Origin: Candidatus Gastranaerophilales bacterium
GTDB lineage: Bacteria > Cyanobacteriota > Vampirovibrionia > Gastranaerophilales > Gastranaerophilaceae
Direction: 5' to 3'
Length of the DNA: 34,556 nt
NCBI GenBank assembly: GCA_944327225.1
Contig: CALVGZ010000020.1
Coordinates: forward strand, 1 to 34,556
Each line of letters begins with the position of its first letter. Position 1 is the stretch's first letter. The notes beneath the pieces were generated by a model. The model did no database searches. It was given only the letters and a program-made list of their open reading frames with translations, and was not told the DNA's origin. Position numbers and translations under genes: made by a program. Shown piece by piece: positions 24,242-34,371 of this stretch.

Positions 24242-24546
24242 TCGTGCGTATGTTTCGGTCGTAATAACAACATCTTGGTATTTTGAACAGCTTTAAGACC
24301 ATGCGGCACCTTGGCGGGCATTACAATCATTTCATTAGCGTATAATCTGTGAACTTCTTTCCCTATCATTATATCGGCTTGTCCTTCAATTATTATTGCG
24401 ACCTCATCTTTTTCGTCACAATGTAAACTTCTTTCATGCCCTTTTTTAAATGAAAGCAAGGTAAGAGAACTCTGTTCATTATCGAAAACAAATTTCTTAT
24501 TTATAATATCTAAAAATTCTATATCTTTTAAATTTATTTTTGCCAT
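24238..24546 (-). CDS. Cupin-domain protein
   Basis: 102 residues forming a single small cupin barrel. Motif 1 is LLSFKKGHERSLHCDEKDEVAIIIEG (His and Glu positions as metal ligands, but the first HxH is spread out as H-x5-H). Motif 2 is MIVMPAKVPHGLKA with the final His. Function unknown; cupins may bind metal and act as sensors or enzymes. It overlaps the end of the hybrid cluster protein gene by 13 bp, so the two are likely made from one mRNA. It converges with the repeat protein (4-bp overlap). The C-terminus PKHTHD adds a possible metal-binding His pair. Confidence 0.85.
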   Translation of the reverse strand: MAKINLKDIEFLDIINKKFVFDNEQSSLTLLSFKKGHERSLHCDEKDEVAIIIEGQADIMIGKEVHRLYANEMIVMPAKVPHGLKAVQNTKMLLLRPKHTHD

Positions 24547-26072
24547 TTATTTAAAATTTCTTCTAAATCTTCCTTTGCTGTAGTTATAGGTTTAATTTTA
24601 TATTTTTCAACCAATATTTTCAAGATATCAGAAGAAACGAAAGCCGGCAAAGTGGGCCCGAGTTTTATATTTTCAACACCCAAAAACAAAAGAGTCAACA
24701 ATATGCAAACTGCTTTTTGTTCATACCAAGATAAAATCATGGATAAAGGTAAATCATTAACGCTACAATTAAAAGTTTTTGAAAGTTCAAGTGCAATTTT
24801 TATTGCAGAATAAGCATCATTACACTGCCCCAAATCTATAAGTCTAGGAATACCTTTAATTTCACCTAAGTCCAGATCATTAAAACGATATTTACCACAA
24901 GCTAAAGTTAAAACAAGAGAATTTTTCGGAGTCAATTTTACAAATTCAGTATAATAATTTCTGCCTGTTTTTGCTCCGTCGCAACCACCGACAAGAAAAA
25001 TATGTTTAACATCTCCTGATTTAATTAATTCAACCAATTTATCTTTTATTGATATAATACTGTTATGTCCAAACCCGACTGTTAGAGTATTCCCGCCATT
25101 TATTCCGGTCATTTTTTTATTTTCTTTATACCCACCAAGTTCAACTGCTCTTTTAATAACAGGACTAAAATCATTTTCAACATGAGATACATCAGGATAT
25201 CCCACAACAGAAGTTGTAAAAACTCTATCTCTATAACTGTTTTTTACAGGCATAATACAATTTGTCGTGAATAAAACGGAAGCCGGAATATTATCAAATT
25301 CTTTTTGTTGATTTTGCCAAGCAGTACCAAAGTTACCTTTTAAATGCTTGTACTTATTCAACTCGGGATATCCATGACATGGCAACATTTCACCATGAGT
25401 ATAAATATTTATGCCTTTATCTTTAGTTTGCTCCAACAAAAGCTCCAAATCTTTTAAATCATGCCCGCTTACAACTATAAAAGGTCCTTTTTCAATATTT
25501 GTTGTAACTTTTTTAGGAGATGGATTTCCATAAGTTTTTGTGTTTGCTTCATCTAAAAGCCCCATACACTTTAAATTTATTTCACCCGTTTTTAATACCA
25601 AATTAAACAATTCCTCTTTGGATAAATTTTTAGGTATAGATTTTAAAGCTTCAAAAAAGAATTCTTCAACATCCGAATTCCTATATCCCAAAACTCTTGC
25701 ATGATGATAATAAGCCGCAATTCCTTTAAGACCGAATAAAATTAACGATTTTAAACTTCTTATATCAATATTTGTATTCCACAACATTTTTATATTGAAA
25801 TCAAAATCACAATATAACTGCTTTTTTATTTTTTTGATATATTCCTGTATCATACCATCGTCAAAATTAACGTTTGTAATAGTCATAAATAAACCGTCTG
25901 TTACAAGTTCAATATTTTCATCCGTTATTTCACAACAATTTGCAAGTTTAATCAATTCATCCAACAATTCATCCTGAAGAATTGCACAAGTAGATGTTTT
26001 TCCACAAACACCCTGTTTTATACAGCCTTTTTGACCTGCTGTCTGCTCACATTGAAAACAAAACATATCCAT
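24534..26072 (-). CDS. hcp: Hybrid cluster protein (hydroxylamine/NO reductase-type)
   Basis: An iron-sulfur protein with a [4Fe-2S-2O] hybrid cluster, linked in other bacteria to nitric oxide and nitrosative stress. 512 residues. The N-terminal cluster motif is C5-x2-C8-x8-C17-x5-C23 (CFQCEQTAGQKGCIKQGVC), the spacing of the anaerobe-type forms, not the E. coli class. Hybrid-cluster ligand regions are visible: HGEMLPCHGYPEL, TTNCIMP, VGGCDGAKTGR, LACGKYRFN and DLGQCNDAY. AGGAG lies 8 nt before the ATG. The 284-bp upstream gap holds an imperfect palindrome. No adjacent reductase (Hcr) is seen. Confidence 0.95.
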   Translation of the reverse strand: MDMFCFQCEQTAGQKGCIKQGVCGKTSTCAILQDELLDELIKLANCCEITDENIELVTDGLFMTITNVNFDDGMIQEYIKKIKKQLYCDFDFNIKMLWNTNIDIRSLKSLILFGLKGIAAYYHHARVLGYRNSDVEEFFFEALKSIPKNLSKEELFNLVLKTGEINLKCMGLLDEANTKTYGNPSPKKVTTNIEKGPFIVVSGHDLKDLELLLEQTKDKGINIYTHGEMLPCHGYPELNKYKHLKGNFGTAWQNQQKEFDNIPASVLFTTNCIMPVKNSYRDRVFTTSVVGYPDVSHVENDFSPVIKRAVELGGYKENKKMTGINGGNTLTVGFGHNSIISIKDKLVELIKSGDVKHIFLVGGCDGAKTGRNYYTEFVKLTPKNSLVLTLACGKYRFNDLDLGEIKGIPRLIDLGQCNDAYSAIKIALELSKTFNCSVNDLPLSMILSWYEQKAVCILLTLLFLGVENIKLGPTLPAFVSSDILKILVEKYKIKPITTAKEDLEEILNKWQK

Positions 26073-26130: not shown

Positions 26131-26356
26131 AGGGTAATTTTTGCACCAAATACAAATTTACATAATTTTAAATTTAAGAAACACTATATTTAATATATTT
26201 GGCAATTAAATAATAAAACAACATAAAGACACTATTATAATTTCAATGAGGAAACTTAACTTCTAATTATAGGCAGCTATGAAGTCAGACGAATGAATAA
26301 TACCAACCAATTTGCCCGAAAGACAAATGTAATTTAACATACAGAACAAGATGTAA

Positions 26357-29300
26357 TTAACTATGAGATGGAGATGGTTTGTGCATTGATAATTTTTGTT
26401 TTATGATATCCAAACTTCTATGTGTTGAACTATCTATATTAAAACTATTTATAATTTGTTGCATTGTTTCTGCACTCCAATATATTTTCAATTTTTTCTT
26501 TGCTCTTGTTATAGCTGTATAAAAAATTCCATGTGTTATTTTCTCTGAGTTGCTATTAGGTATAATAATTTTTACCGAATCATACTCTAAACCTTGTGCT
26601 TTATGTATAGAAACGGCATATGCCAATTGGAATGGAATTATCGAACACATGTGCATATATTCAGAATCTTCTTCTGTATTATTCCCATCATATTTACATA
26701 CTTTAATGCGTATACGAGTAGTATTATCATCAATTGTTTCAATAAATTCTATATCTTCTTTTTCACATAATTTTTCAGTTAGTATCATGTCTACATCTAT
26801 AGTAAAAATAATTTCTTCTTCTGACTTTTCTATATCAACAATTCGTCCTTTAAGATTATTATATAAAATTGAATAACGTCTACTGTCATTAAATAGAATT
26901 GGATCGCCTATTTTATAACTCCACTCTTGCCAATATATAGCTTCATTTTGATTTGCATTTTGGAAATAATTGTTCATATTATTTAAGCCAAATTTACCAT
27001 CATAATTTAGACACAGTATTACTTCATCTTTCTCATAATTATTTAATATATTTTGCCCAATTGTTTCACTAAAATCACCATCTATAACAAGTTTTTCTGT
27101 AATTAATTCATTATGGCATCTTACTTCGTTCCATAAACATTTAAGATTTTCATCATCTGTTCTCCAAGTGCTGAGCAATTCAACATTCGCACCAACAGTA
27201 TTTATTATTTTTTTTGCATAAAAGAACCAATTCCCAAAATCAATAGATTCAATTTGATGAATATCACCAGCTAATACCAACAAAGTATTTTCATTAATTT
27301 TTTGAAAAAACTGTTCCATTTTTCTGTTATCAATAGTGCTACATTCATCTACAAAAATAATGTCATAATCTTGTAATTGTACGCGTTTTGTAAAACTGTC
27401 AAAACTTATGAAATCAGCATCTTGCCCTGGATTATCAATACGTCTTTTTAAATTTTGCAATGCAGTATGCGTTTTCGTAAGAAATAATTTTTTATGATCT
27501 ACCATCATATTTGAAATATAGTTTAGTAACGTGGTTTTGCCAGTTCCTGCTGCCCCATAAACTAATAATAGACGAGAATTCACAAAAATTTCTCTTATTG
27601 CTTTTTCTTTCAATAAATCTGTAAATTGAGATAAATTTTCTTTGACATATTTTTTATTAAATGCTTCTTGTCCTTTAATACCACCTTGTGAATGTGCTAT
27701 CAATTGTTGTAATATGTAGAGTGTGCTTCTTTCATATGCATCAATACAAATGTTGTCAGAATCTGTATTGATTTTATAACCCGCTTTCCTTTCCCAAGTA
27801 TCTAGGGCTATATTATATGCCACTATGTCATCATCATTTACAATAGTATTTCTATCAAAATATATTTCTCCGGTTTTATTAATCTCATTTTTAATTGTAA
27901 TATAAGGTCTTGCAATATTTAATTTATCTTCAGTTGTTATATCTATCATCTTAACAATATCGTTGTCGCTAGTTTTAGTGCCAACTAAATTAAATATATA
28001 TGGATTCTTTTCAAATGGTAAACATTTTGTAGATATACATGGACCATCTTTCAAAACTTTTGAATTGTATGAATTTGGCATTATGTTATCAAAAAGATCT
28101 TCTCTTAAGTTCAGTAAGAGATACCGTATCGTATTATGTCCAACTTTATTTGTACTATATGAAAAATTAGTTCTTAAAATATTCAAAATATTTTTAAATA
28201 AAGACGTATTAACATTATTATATATTTTATTAATTACTTCAATATAATTATCTTCTTGTAAATCTATTAACTCTAGTAAATTTAATCCTGTTGCTGTAAG
28301 AAAGTTCATTAAAGTAGTATATTCACCATGTTTAGAAGATAATTTTATTGGAGTTTGCAAAATTTTGCCAAGTTTATTTAAACTTTTAGGATTTATTGAA
28401 ACTTCCCAATTTGTAATAATTTTAATTTTGGAATTAACATTCCATATATTTACAATTTTATCAATATAGCCTATTTGTATAGAATAATTTGTCGAAATAT
28501 CTTCTTTTGTATATGCTGTAATTCTGTTATATTTGGTTGCATATATATCTGCTAATTGCAATGTAATTTCATAATATCTTTCACCATCTACAAAAAATAA
28601 TGTTTTCTTTTTAATATAATATCTGGAAGCACTTAGTTTTACAGCTTTAGGTATGGAAGTGTCAAAAGTTTTTGCAACTAATTCATAATATTGAAGATCT
28701 AGACTATCGATGTTAATCGGGAATTTTTCAAGATTATGAAGCACTTTCATTCCATATTGTTCATATAAAAATTTTCTTATTTGCCATAAAAAATTATAAT
28801 ACTTAAGCATGAGTCGCTCAGATTGCCCGTCATTAGGAATTCTATTTCCTATGTATTTAAGTGCCCTGTAAAAATTTCCTAAATATTTTGTTTGGGAATT
28901 AAGAATAGAATATTCCCAGGCTAACTTAATATTAACTTTTTCACTTCTTTTTAGTAATAAATTTAACAAGAGAGTAGATTTACATATATCTTGTAATCTA
29001 CATAGCATCCTTTTGGAAATATTATCGCGGGTATCATTATATTTATCCCACCTATCAATATTTTCACAAATTTCTTCATCACAAGATTTGATAATATTTT
29101 CTATGTCTTGCTTTGAATAATATATATCATCTAATTGATTTATAAAACTGTGATGTTCAACTATATTAAGTAGTTTTTGGCAGAATTCATTTATACTCTC
29201 ATCAGTGTTTTTAATTTCTTCTTCCTCTGTAAAATAAAGTGTAATACTGTCTCGATCATAATTAATTGAATTAATGAAATCAGTTGACATATATTTCCAA

Positions 29301-29686
29301 AAAACTCTTTCGTTACCTCGGCTATTTGGGTTTAGTACAACAAAAAGAATTCCAGGATCAAAAGTTACTTTTGCATAAATATATGCAGGGAAACCTAAGC
29401 TTTTTAGACAATACTTTACTATACCGTCTTTTTCGCTATAATTATTAGTTCCTTTTATCTGAACACTAAAATTTTGTTTTGGACAACGTGATAACAATGG
29501 TTCTGGTACAAATTCAAAAAATCCATCAATATTAGGCCATTTATCTCCATGTGCAAAGTTTGAATTTATTTTCCCATCTGACCTCAAAAAAGATTGAAGT
29601 AGAGTAACCGCAGAACGATCTTCATCTGATTGTTCAGTATGTGTTTTAAGATGTTTTTCTATAATGCTTTGCTTTAAATTCGCCAT
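26357..29686 (-). CDS. DUF4365-like nuclease fused to SF1 helicase, putative defence protein
   Basis: 1109 residues. An N-terminal domain (about 20-150) resembles DUF4365/PD-(D/E)xK: NIDGFFEFV gives Asp54 and Glu58, and VQIKGTNNY gives Gln76-x-Lys78. The middle (about 150-690) is unassigned. The C-terminus is an SF1 (RecD/UvrD-C2-like) helicase: Walker A VYGAAGTGKTT (about 707-717), DECSTID (II), VLAGDIHQIE (III), an Arg in LLSTWRTDD, AYAVSIHKAQGLEYDS (V) and YTAITRAKKK (VI). The ATG at 29686 is chosen over the TTG at 29725 because a TATAAT (29719-29714) lies between them; no strong ribosome site is seen. It is 70 nt after the recombinase and beside a type I RM locus, so a role in defence is inferred. 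Confidence 0.85.
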   Translation of the reverse strand: MANLKQSIIEKHLKTHTEQSDEDRSAVTLLQSFLRSDGKINSNFAHGDKWPNIDGFFEFVPEPLLSRCPKQNFSVQIKGTNNYSEKDGIVKYCLKSLGFPAYIYAKVTFDPGILFVVLNPNSRGNERVFWKYMSTDFINSINYDRDSITLYFTEEEEIKNTDESINEFCQKLLNIVEHHSFINQLDDIYYSKQDIENIIKSCDEEICENIDRWDKYNDTRDNISKRMLCRLQDICKSTLLLNLLLKRSEKVNIKLAWEYSILNSQTKYLGNFYRALKYIGNRIPNDGQSERLMLKYYNFLWQIRKFLYEQYGMKVLHNLEKFPINIDSLDLQYYELVAKTFDTSIPKAVKLSASRYYIKKKTLFFVDGERYYEITLQLADIYATKYNRITAYTKEDISTNYSIQIGYIDKIVNIWNVNSKIKIITNWEVSINPKSLNKLGKILQTPIKLSSKHGEYTTLMNFLTATGLNLLELIDLQEDNYIEVINKIYNNVNTSLFKNILNILRTNFSYSTNKVGHNTIRYLLLNLREDLFDNIMPNSYNSKVLKDGPCISTKCLPFEKNPYIFNLVGTKTSDNDIVKMIDITTEDKLNIARPYITIKNEINKTGEIYFDRNTIVNDDDIVAYNIALDTWERKAGYKINTDSDNICIDAYERSTLYILQQLIAHSQGGIKGQEAFNKKYVKENLSQFTDLLKEKAIREIFVNSRLLLVYGAAGTGKTTLLNYISNMMVDHKKLFLTKTHTALQNLKRRIDNPGQDADFISFDSFTKRVQLQDYDIIFVDECSTIDNRKMEQFFQKINENTLLVLAGDIHQIESIDFGNWFFYAKKIINTVGANVELLSTWRTDDENLKCLWNEVRCHNELITEKLVIDGDFSETIGQNILNNYEKDEVILCLNYDGKFGLNNMNNYFQNANQNEAIYWQEWSYKIGDPILFNDSRRYSILYNNLKGRIVDIEKSEEEIIFTIDVDMILTEKLCEKEDIEFIETIDDNTTRIRIKVCKYDGNNTEEDSEYMHMCSIIPFQLAYAVSIHKAQGLEYDSVKIIIPNSNSEKITHGIFYTAITRAKKKLKIYWSAETMQQIINSFNIDSSTHRSLDIIKQKLSMHKPSPSHS

Positions 29687-30713: not shown

Positions 30714-30764
30714 AATAAATACCTCCATATAGTTATTAAATAAGGTATTTAGAAGATTTTCTGA

Positions 30765-30845
30765 CCTCAAGTTATCATCTAAAGGATAAAGGGAATAATG
30801 CCCCAAAACTCAGATTTAAGGGGTATAATGATGAGTGGAAACATT
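30765..30845 (+). repeat. Outer inverted repeat of hsdS switch, left copy (81 bp)
   Basis: Identical over all 81 bases to the reverse complement of 33242-33322. It encodes the first conserved HsdS stretch (SSYHLKDKGNNAPKLRF, then KGYNDEWKH). Sequences diverge immediately outside both ends. Confidence 0.95.
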
Positions 30846-30868
30846 TAAATTTTAAATCTATAACTACA

Positions 30869-32053
30869 ATGATTAAAGATGGAACTCACGGCAGCTATAA
30901 TGATTTATCAGAAGGCATTCCATTATTAAGTGCAAAAGATATTGATAACGGAAAAGTTATAATACCCGATGATTGCAGAAGAATTTCCTTATCAGATTAT
31001 AATGATATTTATAAAAATTATTCTTTAAAAATTAATGATATTCTATTAACAATAGTTGGAACAATAGGACGAGTTGCATTAGTTAGTGATATAACCAATA
31101 AATATGCATTTCAAAGAAGTGTAGGAATATTAAGAGCAAATGAATATAATAATCCACAATTTATTTTGTATCTTTTGCAAACAGATTTTATAAAAAAGCA
31201 ATTTTATTCAAAAGTAAATCAATCAGCACAAGGAGGAATATATTTAGATACATTAGGTAAAATAGATTTTAAAATACCAACTTTACCCGAACAAGAAAAA
31301 ATCGCGTCATTTTTAACTCTGATTGATAAGAAAATCGAAAAACAAAAAGAACTTGTAGAACTCCTCAAGAAGTATAAAAGAGGATTACTTTCTCAAATAT
31401 TCAGCCAAAAATTGAGGTTTAAAGACAAGAATGGAAACGATTATCAGGAATGGGAAGAATGTAAATTTGATGAAATATTTCAAATACTTGGGAATAACAC
31501 TTTATCAAGAGAATGTTTAAATTATACAAATATTGGAGTTAAAAATATACATTATGGAGACATATTAGTAAAATATCATACTTGTATAAACGATGAAATA
31601 GACAAAATTCCCAATATTAATTCTGATATAAATTTAAATAAAATTCCAGATGATAATTATCTTACAGTTGGTGACGTTATTTTGGCTGATACTGCAGAGG
31701 ATTATACAGTGGGAAAGACCTGCGAAATAGTTTCTTGTAACACAAAAATCTTATCAGGTTTACACACAATCCCTTGCCGTCCCAAACGAAATTTTGCAAA
31801 GGGTTATTTAGGCTATTATCTAAACTCTGCAGAATATCATGATAAGCTAATCCCTTTGATTACAGGAATAAAAGTTTCTTCGATAAGCAAAAAGGAAATT
31901 AAGAAAACTATTATTAAATATCCTGTTTATAATGAACAGAAGAAAATTGCAAATCTATTACTATTAATTGAAAATAAATTAAATTTAAACATTAAAAGAT
32001 TAGAATTATTTGAAACATACAAAAAAGGATTGCTTCAACAATTATTTATATAA
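30869..32053 (+). CDS. hsdS: HsdS specificity subunit, probably silent donor copy
   Basis: 394 residues from the first in-frame ATG. HsdS-like reading continues upstream through the left outer repeat to 30740, just after an in-frame TAA at 30737-30739, with no start codon or ribosome site. So the 5' end is missing and the gene is probably not expressed as it stands. Layout: recognition domain 1 (to about 31300), the conserved central helix LPEQEKIASFLTLIDKKI with LVELLKKYKRGLLSQ, recognition domain 2 and a closing YKKGLLQQLFI. The central part contains the inner repeat (31339-31431). It converges with the expressed hsdS and overlaps it by 8 bp (TTATATAA, a palindrome). Confidence 0.88.
   Translation: MIKDGTHGSYNDLSEGIPLLSAKDIDNGKVIIPDDCRRISLSDYNDIYKNYSLKINDILLTIVGTIGRVALVSDITNKYAFQRSVGILRANEYNNPQFILYLLQTDFIKKQFYSKVNQSAQGGIYLDTLGKIDFKIPTLPEQEKIASFLTLIDKKIEKQKELVELLKKYKRGLLSQIFSQKLRFKDKNGNDYQEWEECKFDEIFQILGNNTLSRECLNYTNIGVKNIHYGDILVKYHTCINDEIDKIPNINSDINLNKIPDDNYLTVGDVILADTAEDYTVGKTCEIVSCNTKILSGLHTIPCRPKRNFAKGYLGYYLNSAEYHDKLIPLITGIKVSSISKKEIKKTIIKYPVYNEQKKIANLLLLIENKLNLNIKRLELFETYKKGLLQQLFI
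31339..31431 (+). repeat. Inner inverted repeat of hsdS switch, left copy (93 bp)
   Basis: Identical over 93 bases to the reverse complement of 32671-32763. It encodes KQKELVELLKKYKRGLLSQ and the following IFSQKLRFKDK, the central conserved helix of HsdS between the two recognition domains. Confidence 0.95.
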
Positions 32054-33362
32054 ACATCTGCTGCAATAAACCTTTTTTATAGTTCTGTAACTTATCTAAT
32101 ATACGTTCTTCTTGTAAAATTTTTTCATCAAATTTTGACAAAAACTCCGATATTTTATTTTGTTCATCAATATTTATTGATATTTTAATTTTAATTTTTT
32201 TCAAATCTGTTTTATTAAACTTCGGCTGTCCGCTTGCTCCAACTTGTAAAAATAATTGTTTTCTGAAATTATCCGTTAAGCACCTAGAGTACAGATAATA
32301 CAAATTATTATTTGATGATTTTAATAAAATGGCATTTGGACCCAAAACATTATTTTTATACGGTAATTTAAAAGAATAAATATAATATACTTCACCAATA
32401 TTTGCTCCAATATTAGGCAAGATTAATGCATCTTCATTTAAATTAACCCTCCATAGATAGTTATATGCTGATTCACTTATAAATACAAAATCTTTATTTT
32501 TGAAGTTATTTTTTAAATCAATAGTTCGTACCAATTGAGCAAAATCGGGTTTTTCGTTATATTGCACATTTTTTCTTAAATCGGCAAATGATCCTGCTGC
32601 AACAAAATCGGTTACTGTATCAAATATATTATTAAGCGTTTTTTCTTCCCAATCGGGGTAATTATTCCAGTTCTTGTCTTTAAACCTCAATTTTTGGCTG
32701 AATATTTGAGAAAGTAATCCTCTTTTATACTTCTTGAGGAGTTCTACAAGTTCTTTTTGTTTTCCTATTTTCTTATCAATTAATGTCAAAAATGATGCGA
32801 TTTTTTCTTGCTCAGGTAAGTGTGGTATATAGACATTACATTCTCCAATCTCATTTTTATTGATTTTCTTAGGAAATGCAACATGCAAAGTTCTTTTCCA
32901 TAGTTCATGCTGAAATTGCTCTGACGAAATTCGCTGAATCAAAAACTTTGGAGCCAAAATTGCATAATTTGATTTTAATAAAGCCAAACTAACATAATAA
33001 GCGTATCTTTCATTTGTATTTATTATTGCAGGGGTTCCAATATCACCAATTCTAGTCATTAGTATATCATTTATTTCAGGTTTTATTTTGAAATCTTTTT
33101 CATAATCCTCTCTTGATATATATTTATTTGTTTTGTCAAGGTTATTAATATTTTCAACACTTACAAATTTTATTCCATCATCAATATAATTAGGAGTTTG
33201 GTGAGTTCCATCATAAATTTGCACGATATCTTTCAGCCTATAATGTTTCCACTCATCATTATACCCCTTAAATCTGAGTTTTGGGGCATTATTCCCTTTA
33301 TCCTTTAGATGATAACTTGAGGATACATTTTGTGAAAAATTTTTTGTTTCAGAATTAGTCAC
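32046..33362 (-). CDS. hsdS: HsdS type I restriction-modification specificity subunit (expressed copy)
   Basis: 438 residues. Determines the DNA target of the HsdM methylase and HsdR nuclease; each of the two recognition domains reads one half-site. Layout: a short head (VTNSETKNFSQNVSSS), recognition domain 1 (about residues 40-190), the central helix LPEQEKIASFLTLIDKKI, domain 2 (about 250-400) and a closing YKKGLLQQMFI. The start is GTG at 33362, with GGGGGAG upstream, overlapping the rhuM-fic stop (GTGACTAA), so translation is coupled to the hsdM-rhuM-fic mRNA. The in-frame TTG at 33395 is less likely. Its first 13-14 codons lie outside the outer repeat, so they stay fixed when the locus inverts. 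Confidence 0.94.
   Translation of the reverse strand: MTNSETKNFSQNVSSSYHLKDKGNNAPKLRFKGYNDEWKHYRLKDIVQIYDGTHQTPNYIDDGIKFVSVENINNLDKTNKYISREDYEKDFKIKPEINDILMTRIGDIGTPAIINTNERYAYYVSLALLKSNYAILAPKFLIQRISSEQFQHELWKRTLHVAFPKKINKNEIGECNVYIPHLPEQEKIASFLTLIDKKIGKQKELVELLKKYKRGLLSQIFSQKLRFKDKNWNNYPDWEEKTLNNIFDTVTDFVAAGSFADLRKNVQYNEKPDFAQLVRTIDLKNNFKNKDFVFISESAYNYLWRVNLNEDALILPNIGANIGEVYYIYSFKLPYKNNVLGPNAILLKSSNNNLYYLYSRCLTDNFRKQLFLQVGASGQPKFNKTDLKKIKIKISINIDEQNKISEFLSKFDEKILQEERILDKLQNYKKGLLQQMFI
32671..32763 (-). repeat. Inner inverted repeat of hsdS switch, right copy (93 bp)
   Basis: Perfect inverted partner of 31339-31431. Inversion between them would exchange only the second recognition domains of the two hsdS genes. 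Confidence 0.95.
33242..33322 (-). repeat. Outer inverted repeat of hsdS switch, right copy (81 bp)
   Basis: Perfect inverted partner of 30765-30845, near the 5' end of the expressed hsdS. Inversion between the outer repeats would exchange both recognition domains at once. Confidence 0.95.
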
Positions 33363-34371
33363 AAACTCCCCCTCTGTTAAGCACGCTGATAACAATTTGC
33401 TTCATTGTTTCCATTTCTTTTGGATTACTTTCTGCAATTAATATGGTTAAGGCAAATAGTGTTCCATTATCAATAATAGGCAAATTATTTTTATACAAAA
33501 TTCCATTTTTCTCTAAAAAGTATAAGAAGCAACTTGCTGCAATACGTTTATTCCCATCAGAAAATGAATGATTTTTCGTTATCAAATACAATAACATTGC
33601 AGCTTTTTCTTCCAGTGTAGGATAGCAATCATTTCCGCCAAATGTTTGATAAATTTGATTAACGGAACTTTCAAAACTATCATCTTTAGGATTGGCAAAT
33701 ACATCAGAAGCAAATTCTGATTTCATTTTGTTTATTACTGATAAAAATTCTTTAATAGGAATTTTAACCGCTTCTTTTTGCGTAGAACCTTTTACGTCCA
33801 ATGTTTTATGGTCAAAATTATCAAGTAAATCAAGCCCTTTTGCAAAATTATCCAAAATTTTTGCGACTTGTTGTGCATCATCAAGCGATTCTATTTGATT
33901 TGTTAAACTCCTTGATAATAAATTTACAGTCGTTTGCAATTTCTGTATTTTTTCTTGTTTATCTTTTAATATTTTTTCGTTAATGGCATATCCTTTTATT
34001 AGATATTCTTTTAAAACATTAGTAGCCCAGATACGAAATTGTGTTGCCCTTGAAGAATTGACTCTGTATCCAACTGAAATTATTGCATCTAAATTATAAA
34101 ATTGCGTTTGTGATTTTTGCGTTTTTCCTTTTATCGCACCATGTTTCGTGGTTGTTTCCAAAATGGAAATAACCACTTCTTCTTTTAATTCCCCTTCATT
34201 AAAAATATTTTTTAGGTGTTTACTTATGGCAGGAGTTTTTACACCAAAGAGTTCAGCCATATCTTTTTGAGTAAGCCAGATGGTGTCGTTTTCCAGTTTT
34301 GTATCAAGTGATACCTTACCGTCATCACTTGTGTATATTACAATTTCACCTTTTGATTTATTATTATCCAT
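33355..34371 (-). CDS. RhuM-family protein with C-terminal Fic/DOC domain
   Basis: 338 residues. The N-terminal RhuM domain (1-125) shows TIWLTQKDMAELFGVKTPA, a helix-turn-helix-like start, and FYNLDAIISVGYRVNS. A coiled segment follows (about 130-190), then a Fic/DOC domain (about 195-330). Its catalytic loop is H268-SFSDGNKR in KNHSFSDGNKRIAASCF, matching HxFx(D/E)GN(G/K)R. Fic proteins transfer AMP, phosphate or similar groups to proteins; the target here is unknown. Such genes commonly sit inside type I RM operons, and this one lies between hsdM and hsdS. The ATG has no ribosome site of its own and overlaps the end of a tiny upstream ORF; the stop overlaps the hsdS GTG. Confidence 0.92.
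   Translation of the reverse strand: MDNNKSKGEIVIYTSDDGKVSLDTKLENDTIWLTQKDMAELFGVKTPAISKHLKNIFNEGELKEEVVISILETTTKHGAIKGKTQKSQTQFYNLDAIISVGYRVNSSRATQFRIWATNVLKEYLIKGYAINEKILKDKQEKIQKLQTTVNLLSRSLTNQIESLDDAQQVAKILDNFAKGLDLLDNFDHKTLDVKGSTQKEAVKIPIKEFLSVINKMKSEFASDVFANPKDDSFESSVNQIYQTFGGNDCYPTLEEKAAMLLYLITKNHSFSDGNKRIAASCFLYFLEKNGILYKNNLPIIDNGTLFALTILIAESNPKEMETMKQIVISVLNRGGVCD

Follow-up and report, generated by a model that had tools for sequence, protein, structure and literature searches.

Coupled nucleases and helicases are a recurring design in anti-phage immunity. In Hachiman (HamAB) and Gabija (GajAB) the two activities are encoded by two genes, with a superfamily 2 (SF2), Ski2-like motor in HamB and a UvrD-like motor in GajB (PMC10925250). 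In Nhi, which acts on phage DNA replication intermediates (PMC11084316), and in the anti-phage protein Hna (PMC13381803) they reside in one polypeptide. Here we describe a gene from a Candidatus Gastranaerophilales bacterium (GenBank assembly GCA_944327225.1), located on a stretch of 34,556 nucleotides (contig CALVGZ010000020.1, hereafter the window). The gene encodes a single chain in which a predicted DUF4365 nuclease is joined to a predicted RecD-family superfamily 1B (SF1B) helicase motor. We consider it likely that this enzyme provides immunity against phages (or against mobile DNA) and that its gene is exchangeable cargo of a mobile, phase-variable type I restriction-modification (R-M) element. 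A defence role is suggested by the slot of this element, which in a sister species is occupied by a known anti-phage helicase system. The evidence consists of two predicted folds, conserved catalytic residues, a patchy and horizontal distribution, the linkage to R-M genes and the replacement within the slot.

Like Nhi, the window protein is one multifunctional nuclease-helicase enzyme, but its motor is RecD2-like whereas that of Nhi belongs to the UvrD subfamily (PMC10925250), and Nhi gave no match in the PADLOC scan. With Hna it shares the combination of a helicase and a PD-(D/E)xK nuclease in a single chain; in the 845 amino acids (aa) of Hna, however, an SF2 (DinG/Rad3-like) helicase comes first and the nuclease last, whereas the window protein starts with the nuclease and ends with the SF1B motor. 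Hachiman and Gabija likewise couple a helicase motor to a nuclease, but they use two genes and other nuclease families, in contrast to the single chain with an SF1 motor found here. The nuclease fold (Z score 11.9) and the QxK active site are common to the SPARDA (DUF4365-APAZ) proteins, which contain an APAZ domain and work with a short Argonaute. In the window protein the nuclease is fused to a helicase instead, and neither APAZ nor Argonaute matched any of the window proteins scanned near the gene, which were part of the open reading frames. The motor fold (residues 554-1103) is that of RecD2 and RecD, from which the protein differs in its N-terminal half and in being accessory rather than core. 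Finally, the PADLOC candidate family PDC-S53 matches end to end from residue 194 onwards, and the fused proteins form their own clade with the extra nuclease.

The gene and its parts are located in the window as follows:
26357..29686, minus strand: nuclease-helicase gene, 1109 aa, made up of a PDC-S53 helicase and a nuclease fused to its N-terminus
29147..29638, minus strand: DUF4365-type PD-(D/E)xK nuclease domain (predicted), residues 17-180
29525..29527, minus strand: D54, predicted metal-binding acid, invariant in 15/15 homologues (E58 likewise)
29453..29461, minus strand: Q76-I77-K78 (QxK), spacing equal to that of Q62/K64 in TmuRE
28028..29119, minus strand: conserved middle region of no recognised family, residues 190-553
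26384..28027, minus strand: RecD2-like SF1B helicase, residues 554-1101
27533..27556, minus strand: Walker A, GAAGTGKT, residues 711-718
27341..27355, minus strand: Walker B region, FVDEC, residues 778-782

Starting with an ATG at 29686, the frame comprises 1109 codons without interruption, in agreement with the first-pass annotation of this DNA. A plus-strand reading of the same stretch was rejected, as it is full of stops. Thirteen other proteins, 51-62% identical to the window protein, can be aligned with it end to end at a mean column identity of 67%; judged from this alignment, chance is excluded as the source of the frame. Two homologues look broken, one by an inserted insertion sequence (IS) with a DDE transposase gene (L015, 420-4944) and one by a frameshift (L011, 9983-13293).

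For the N-terminus, a DUF4365-like nuclease core with D-E-QxK residues had been proposed. DUF4365 is classed among the Mrr-type RecB-like nucleases (PMC6299218). A Pfam search gave a weak DUF4365 (PF14280) match for residues 26-164 (E 0.0026), and when the homologous N-termini were searched separately, 14 of 15 matched DUF4365 at E<=0.01 and no other family (best E 1.8e-6). A PDB sequence-profile search with the N-terminus returned no real match; fold comparison alone succeeded. Modelled alone by AlphaFold2, residues 1-186 (mean predicted local distance difference test, pLDDT, of 87) fold as a PD-(D/E)xK domain. The best solved matches were the DUF4365 nucleases of SPARDA (9vx6, 9qbp, 9qcc and 9jsz, Z 11.4-11.9), the top one with Z 11.9 over 135 residues and a root-mean-square deviation (rmsd) of 3.0, followed by the Holliday-junction resolvases Hjc and RecU (Z 7.6-8.5, with 8.5 for Hjc). 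D54, E58, Q76 and K78 were invariant in all 15 homologues. Predicted structure and alignment together thus reveal the PD-(D/E)xK fold as well as the D and QxK active site, as had been proposed. The DUF4365-APAZ protein TmuRE and its Argonaute cut DNA nonspecifically once activated, and the inactive form of TmuRE is a Q62/K64 double mutant (PMC10810196). Among the DUF4365 papers found by literature search, a helicase fusion was not evident in any title or abstract.

The C-terminal half contains Pfam AAA_30 and UvrD_C_2 matches above cut-off. Strong conservation of Walker A (711-718), Walker B (778-782) and motifs V/VI (1022-1064) bears out the SF1 helicase that had been noticed there. In sequence profiles this half groups with RecD, RecD2, Pif1 and Dda, i.e. 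with SF1B. Within the full-length structure model (pLDDT 74.6), residues 554-1103 matched Deinococcus RecD2 best, with Z scores of 20.8 (over 444 residues, rmsd 7.4) and 20.4, followed by Pif1 (Z about 17.5) and UvrD (Z about 16.4). The NCBIfam equivalog cut-offs were by far not reached, with 105 of 500 bits for RecD2 and 117 of 310 bits for RecD. Because of the kinship to RecD, Pif1 and Dda, the helicase would be expected to have 5'-3' polarity. The unassigned middle, previously put at about 540 residues, does exist but is shorter (about 190-553) because the RecD2 similarity begins near residue 554. It is conserved across all relatives. Searches of residues 190-553 against Pfam and PDB profiles gave scattered single matches and no family, and the full-length structure search, being dominated by helicase matches, provided no assignment for them.

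Residues 194-1101 align with positions 3-896 of the 900 positions of PDC-S53 (PDLC05035) at E 6e-282, and this match is common to 14/14 aligned homologues. The PDC-S53 model contains no nuclease; the window protein adds 193 N-terminal residues, which form the predicted nuclease. The first-pass annotation had regarded the protein as an uncharacterised candidate and had not recognised its domain combination as a named system. This holds insofar as no named defence family matches over the full length, but the helicase part is already listed as a candidate. Since the nuclease fusion lies outside that model, we file the protein as a nuclease-fused PDC-S53 variant. Relatives that consist of the core only measure 900-930 aa; they were found in another genus of the window's taxonomic family, a photosynthetic cyanobacterium, Actinobacteria, Bacilli, Bacteroidales, phages, viral contigs and plasmids. 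When the shared region was used to build an unrooted tree, a branch with support 100/100 set the 15 fused proteins apart on one side. A single gain, or a single loss, of the nuclease would be the simplest reading. Neither a DUF4365 gene nor a fixed partner gene was found in the vicinity of the core-only relatives that we examined. In two phages a 278-aa protein is encoded directly upstream of the core-only helicase (L064, 5209-6045; L065, 5137-5973), and a viral contig carries a similar gene (L059, 8389-9540); protein and helicase are a possible two-gene system. A 210-aa gene beside another core-only helicase (L021, 197-829, minus strand) carries by eye a PLD-like HDRF...GTSLNG motif, with no Pfam support.

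PsaA/PsaB are encoded in one genome placed in the phylum of the window, which identifies this phylum as Cyanobacteriota. The window's own family comprises genomes of mostly 1.4-2.5 Mb, and photosystem I is missing from the two that were tested, as would fit the gut Gastranaerophilales. The nuclease-helicase gene is present in 1 of 28 congeners and in a few percent or less of the genomes sampled from the order and the phylum, and its closest homologues are found in another phylum, Bacillota. These values refer to stringent searches, as a family scan at loose E signalled in 146 of 191 genomes via the shared helicase core. The gene is accessory and horizontally moved; a housekeeping gene conserved in all relatives, which the first-pass annotation had named as the opposite outcome, is not what we find.

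The position of the gene connects it to a mobile element, of which the window contains the following parts:
26328..26375, minus strand: 48-bp conserved end of the cargo slot, in which the gene has its final codons and its stop codon
29757..30806, minus strand: tyrosine recombinase of the element, its stop codon being the other border of the slot
30869..32053, plus strand: hsdS specificity gene, first of an inverted pair
32046..33395, minus strand: hsdS specificity gene, second of the inverted pair
31274..31480, no strand: left arm of inverted repeat I1 (partner 32622-32828; 207 nt, 86%)
30730..30845, no strand: left arm of inverted repeat I2 (partner 33242-33357; 116 nt, 85%, about 80 nt identical)
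33355..34371, minus strand: RhuM/Fic fusion protein (PADLOC candidate PDC-S23), found in the same element in other genomes

Copies of the element diverge past the recombinase stop codon, agree again at the 48-bp sequence and are then followed by different DNA in each genome. In the window the slot between these borders holds the nuclease-helicase gene. In a congener (L080), whose slot is situated upstream of the same hcp gene as in the window, the cargo is helicase+DUF2290, which is counted among the anti-phage systems (PMC10925250). A helicase 31% identical to the latter is found inverted in another copy (L097), in which no 48-bp end was detected. Three copies (L096, L099, L104) contain a HamB-like Ski2 helicase and a 282-aa partner; the helicase matches HamB at E 1e-23, but Slh1 and Brr2 helicases score better, and the identity of the partner as HamA was not confirmed. 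Three others (L095, L098, L101) contain a helix-turn-helix gene and ImmA/IrrE, and one (L100) contains nothing. The window gene has a short C-terminal tail that is missing in its relatives, because its final codons and its stop are provided by the 48-bp sequence.

Invertible, phase-variable specificity loci are usually recognised by inverted repeats across paired hsdS genes. The inverted pair with its repeats beside the tyrosine recombinase (30730-33357) is, judged from this arrangement, probably such a locus of a type I R-M system. Copies of the recombinase are 88-91% identical in about ten genera. Two fuller copies of the element (L102, L103) read HsdR-HsdM-RhuM/Fic-HsdS-HsdS(inverted)-recombinase, with RhuM/Fic between HsdM and HsdS. 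The part in the window, RhuM/Fic-HsdS-HsdS-recombinase, extends to the contig end at 34556, such that the contig stops inside the element. Despite the hsdS genes, no match to hsdM or hsdR was obtained on the window contig or elsewhere in its 99.8%-complete assembly. Of the recombinase and type I R-M locus that had been noted beside the gene, the recombinase and two hsdS genes are thus present, the former as part of a mobile element with an invertible hsdS pair, but not hsdM and hsdR.

Tabulating the loci of the homologues revealed R-M genes in 8 of 17. Type I genes comprise HsdM/S together with HsdR in four loci (L008, L010, L013, L014) and HsdM/S in one (L007); the others carry an Eco57I-type methylase (L011), LlaJI (L005), or HpaII and C5 methylases (L006). 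In L008 and L014 hsdR ends 55-73 bp upstream of the gene on the same strand (73 bp in L008). The order in L014 is HsdM-HsdS-TIR-HsdR-gene, with the TIR gene inside the type I operon. MNT/HEPN pairs are found in L003 and L004, and in Ruminococcus flavefaciens (L009, 3041-9923) a 1042-aa SIR2 protein lies directly upstream, preceded by a PLD + DUF3427 helicase. The 17 genomes (51.0 Mb) contain 38 N6_Mtase matches, 5 of them inside the 0.34 Mb of loci. For HsdM, 5 observed compare with 0.22 expected, an about 23-fold excess over the genomic background with a Poisson P of 3e-6, a value that is only indicative and not free of shared ancestry because related loci are not independent. For HSDR_N, 4 of the 15 matches of these genomes fall inside the loci. 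The R-M genes beside many homologues and the known system in the slot of the sister species support the earlier proposal of a candidate defence protein.

For the nuclease activity, the DNA substrate, the trigger and the survival or death of the cell we infer the following course. The helicase would load on single-stranded DNA or DNA ends exposed by infection, possibly at replication or recombination intermediates or at ends made by a neighbouring restriction enzyme. The motor would then travel along the DNA in an ATP-dependent manner and thereby release or deliver the nuclease, probably gated by the middle region of roughly 370 residues as a sensor or regulator. The DUF4365 nuclease would degrade DNA and halt the infection, possibly with cell death. 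An effector that, once triggered, arrests growth or kills the cell by attacking the DNA or RNA of the host (abortive infection), and in which the helicase would act as sensor as in Hachiman, is compatible with this immunity enzyme and would specify its outcome. We regard this outcome as a real but tentative possibility. Both predicted activities reside in a single chain with no separate immunity gene, in short Argonaute systems the activated DUF4365 nucleases cleave DNA regardless of its sequence (PMC10810196), and in Hachiman an effector nuclease is coupled to a helicase that serves as sensor (PMC10925250). Broken copies exist as well (by IS insertion in L015, by a frameshift in L011), but these may be assembly errors of metagenome-assembled genomes, and the observations fit host DNA and phage DNA alike as the target.

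Alternatively, the protein could be an R-M accessory, a RecBCD-like machine that acts on restriction-made ends, destroys the fragments and helps only where a restriction enzyme is present. The R-M genes at 8 of 17 loci, often directly upstream and on the same strand, the location of the window gene inside a type I R-M element and the RecD-like motor would agree with such a role, as would a type II enzyme and methylases near the core-only copies of two phages (L064, L065) and a type I locus near another core-only relative (L068). However, the partners vary (type I, type II, TIR, SIR2, MNT/HEPN or none), the slots in sister genomes hold systems that function alone, the window assembly lacks any HsdM or HsdR match, and co-location by itself is common in defence islands; we therefore hold it to be unlikely. 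Still less probable is a Dda- or RecD2-like helicase-nuclease for replication, recombination or repair that serves mobile elements and not host immunity. Core-only relatives do occur in phages, viral contigs and plasmids, PHROG 325 is named Dda-like helicase, and the motor resembles RecD2, Dda and Pif1. Yet in two phages the gene and its 278-aa partner lie on the strand opposite to the replication genes, the fused homologues are mostly chromosomal and beside R-M genes, the window copy is slot cargo rather than a core gene of its element, and the RecD2 and RecD equivalog scores fall far short. Several observations weigh against an immunity enzyme as such. The DUF4365 score of the window protein (18.2-18.3 bits) does not reach the Pfam gathering score of 24.3, and no family could be assigned to the middle region, a possible place of trigger sensing. 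The PADLOC candidates were obtained by guilt-by-embedding screening, with PMC12988326 describing them as unvalidated, and a literature search for PDC-S53 found no published test. The Dda-like label of the phage core-only relatives could mean replication work. Finally, the homologous loci were found via sequence patterns and include some close relatives (L006/L007, L009/L010).

Of 25 defence helicases surveyed in 2024, 20 were assigned to seven subfamilies, and no member of the RecD/Pif1 type was named (PMC10925250). If the defence role is true, the fusion of a RecD-type motor with a DUF4365 nuclease would extend this set by one. The gene is directly testable because it is compact, single-chain and intact in cultured relatives, e.g. 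Breznakia pachnodae (L005). The slot provides a natural control, with the window gene in one species and a known system at the same genomic position in its sister.

The 48-bp sequence was found in 57 of 383 genomes of the order, belonging to 16 genera, with up to 3 copies each (besides the window L080, L095, L096, L101, L104 and L105-L147), and a reversed control gave 0. The cargo beside it is unrelated and includes type I R-M genes with an adjacent 234-aa gene, HamB-like helicases and others. The sequence looks like an element end or a recombination site and can serve as a handle for finding more defence cargo. Tentatively, and with less than even confidence, we consider the slot as part of a site-specific exchange of defence cassettes in gut Gastranaerophilales-like bacteria. 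One or more tyrosine recombinases would act at the 48-bp site that closes unrelated cassettes, such that whole immune systems are swapped as modules beside the invertible hsdS pair; the cassettes counted here are the nuclease-helicase, helicase+DUF2290, HamB-like, ImmA/IrrE and type I R-M. The region upstream of the hybrid-cluster (hcp) gene (24534-26072 in the window) also varies among congeners (L079-L082), where AbiH (near the hcp-side site in L081), helicase+DUF2290, Fic or the nuclease-helicase is found, and it is probably a defence hotspot.

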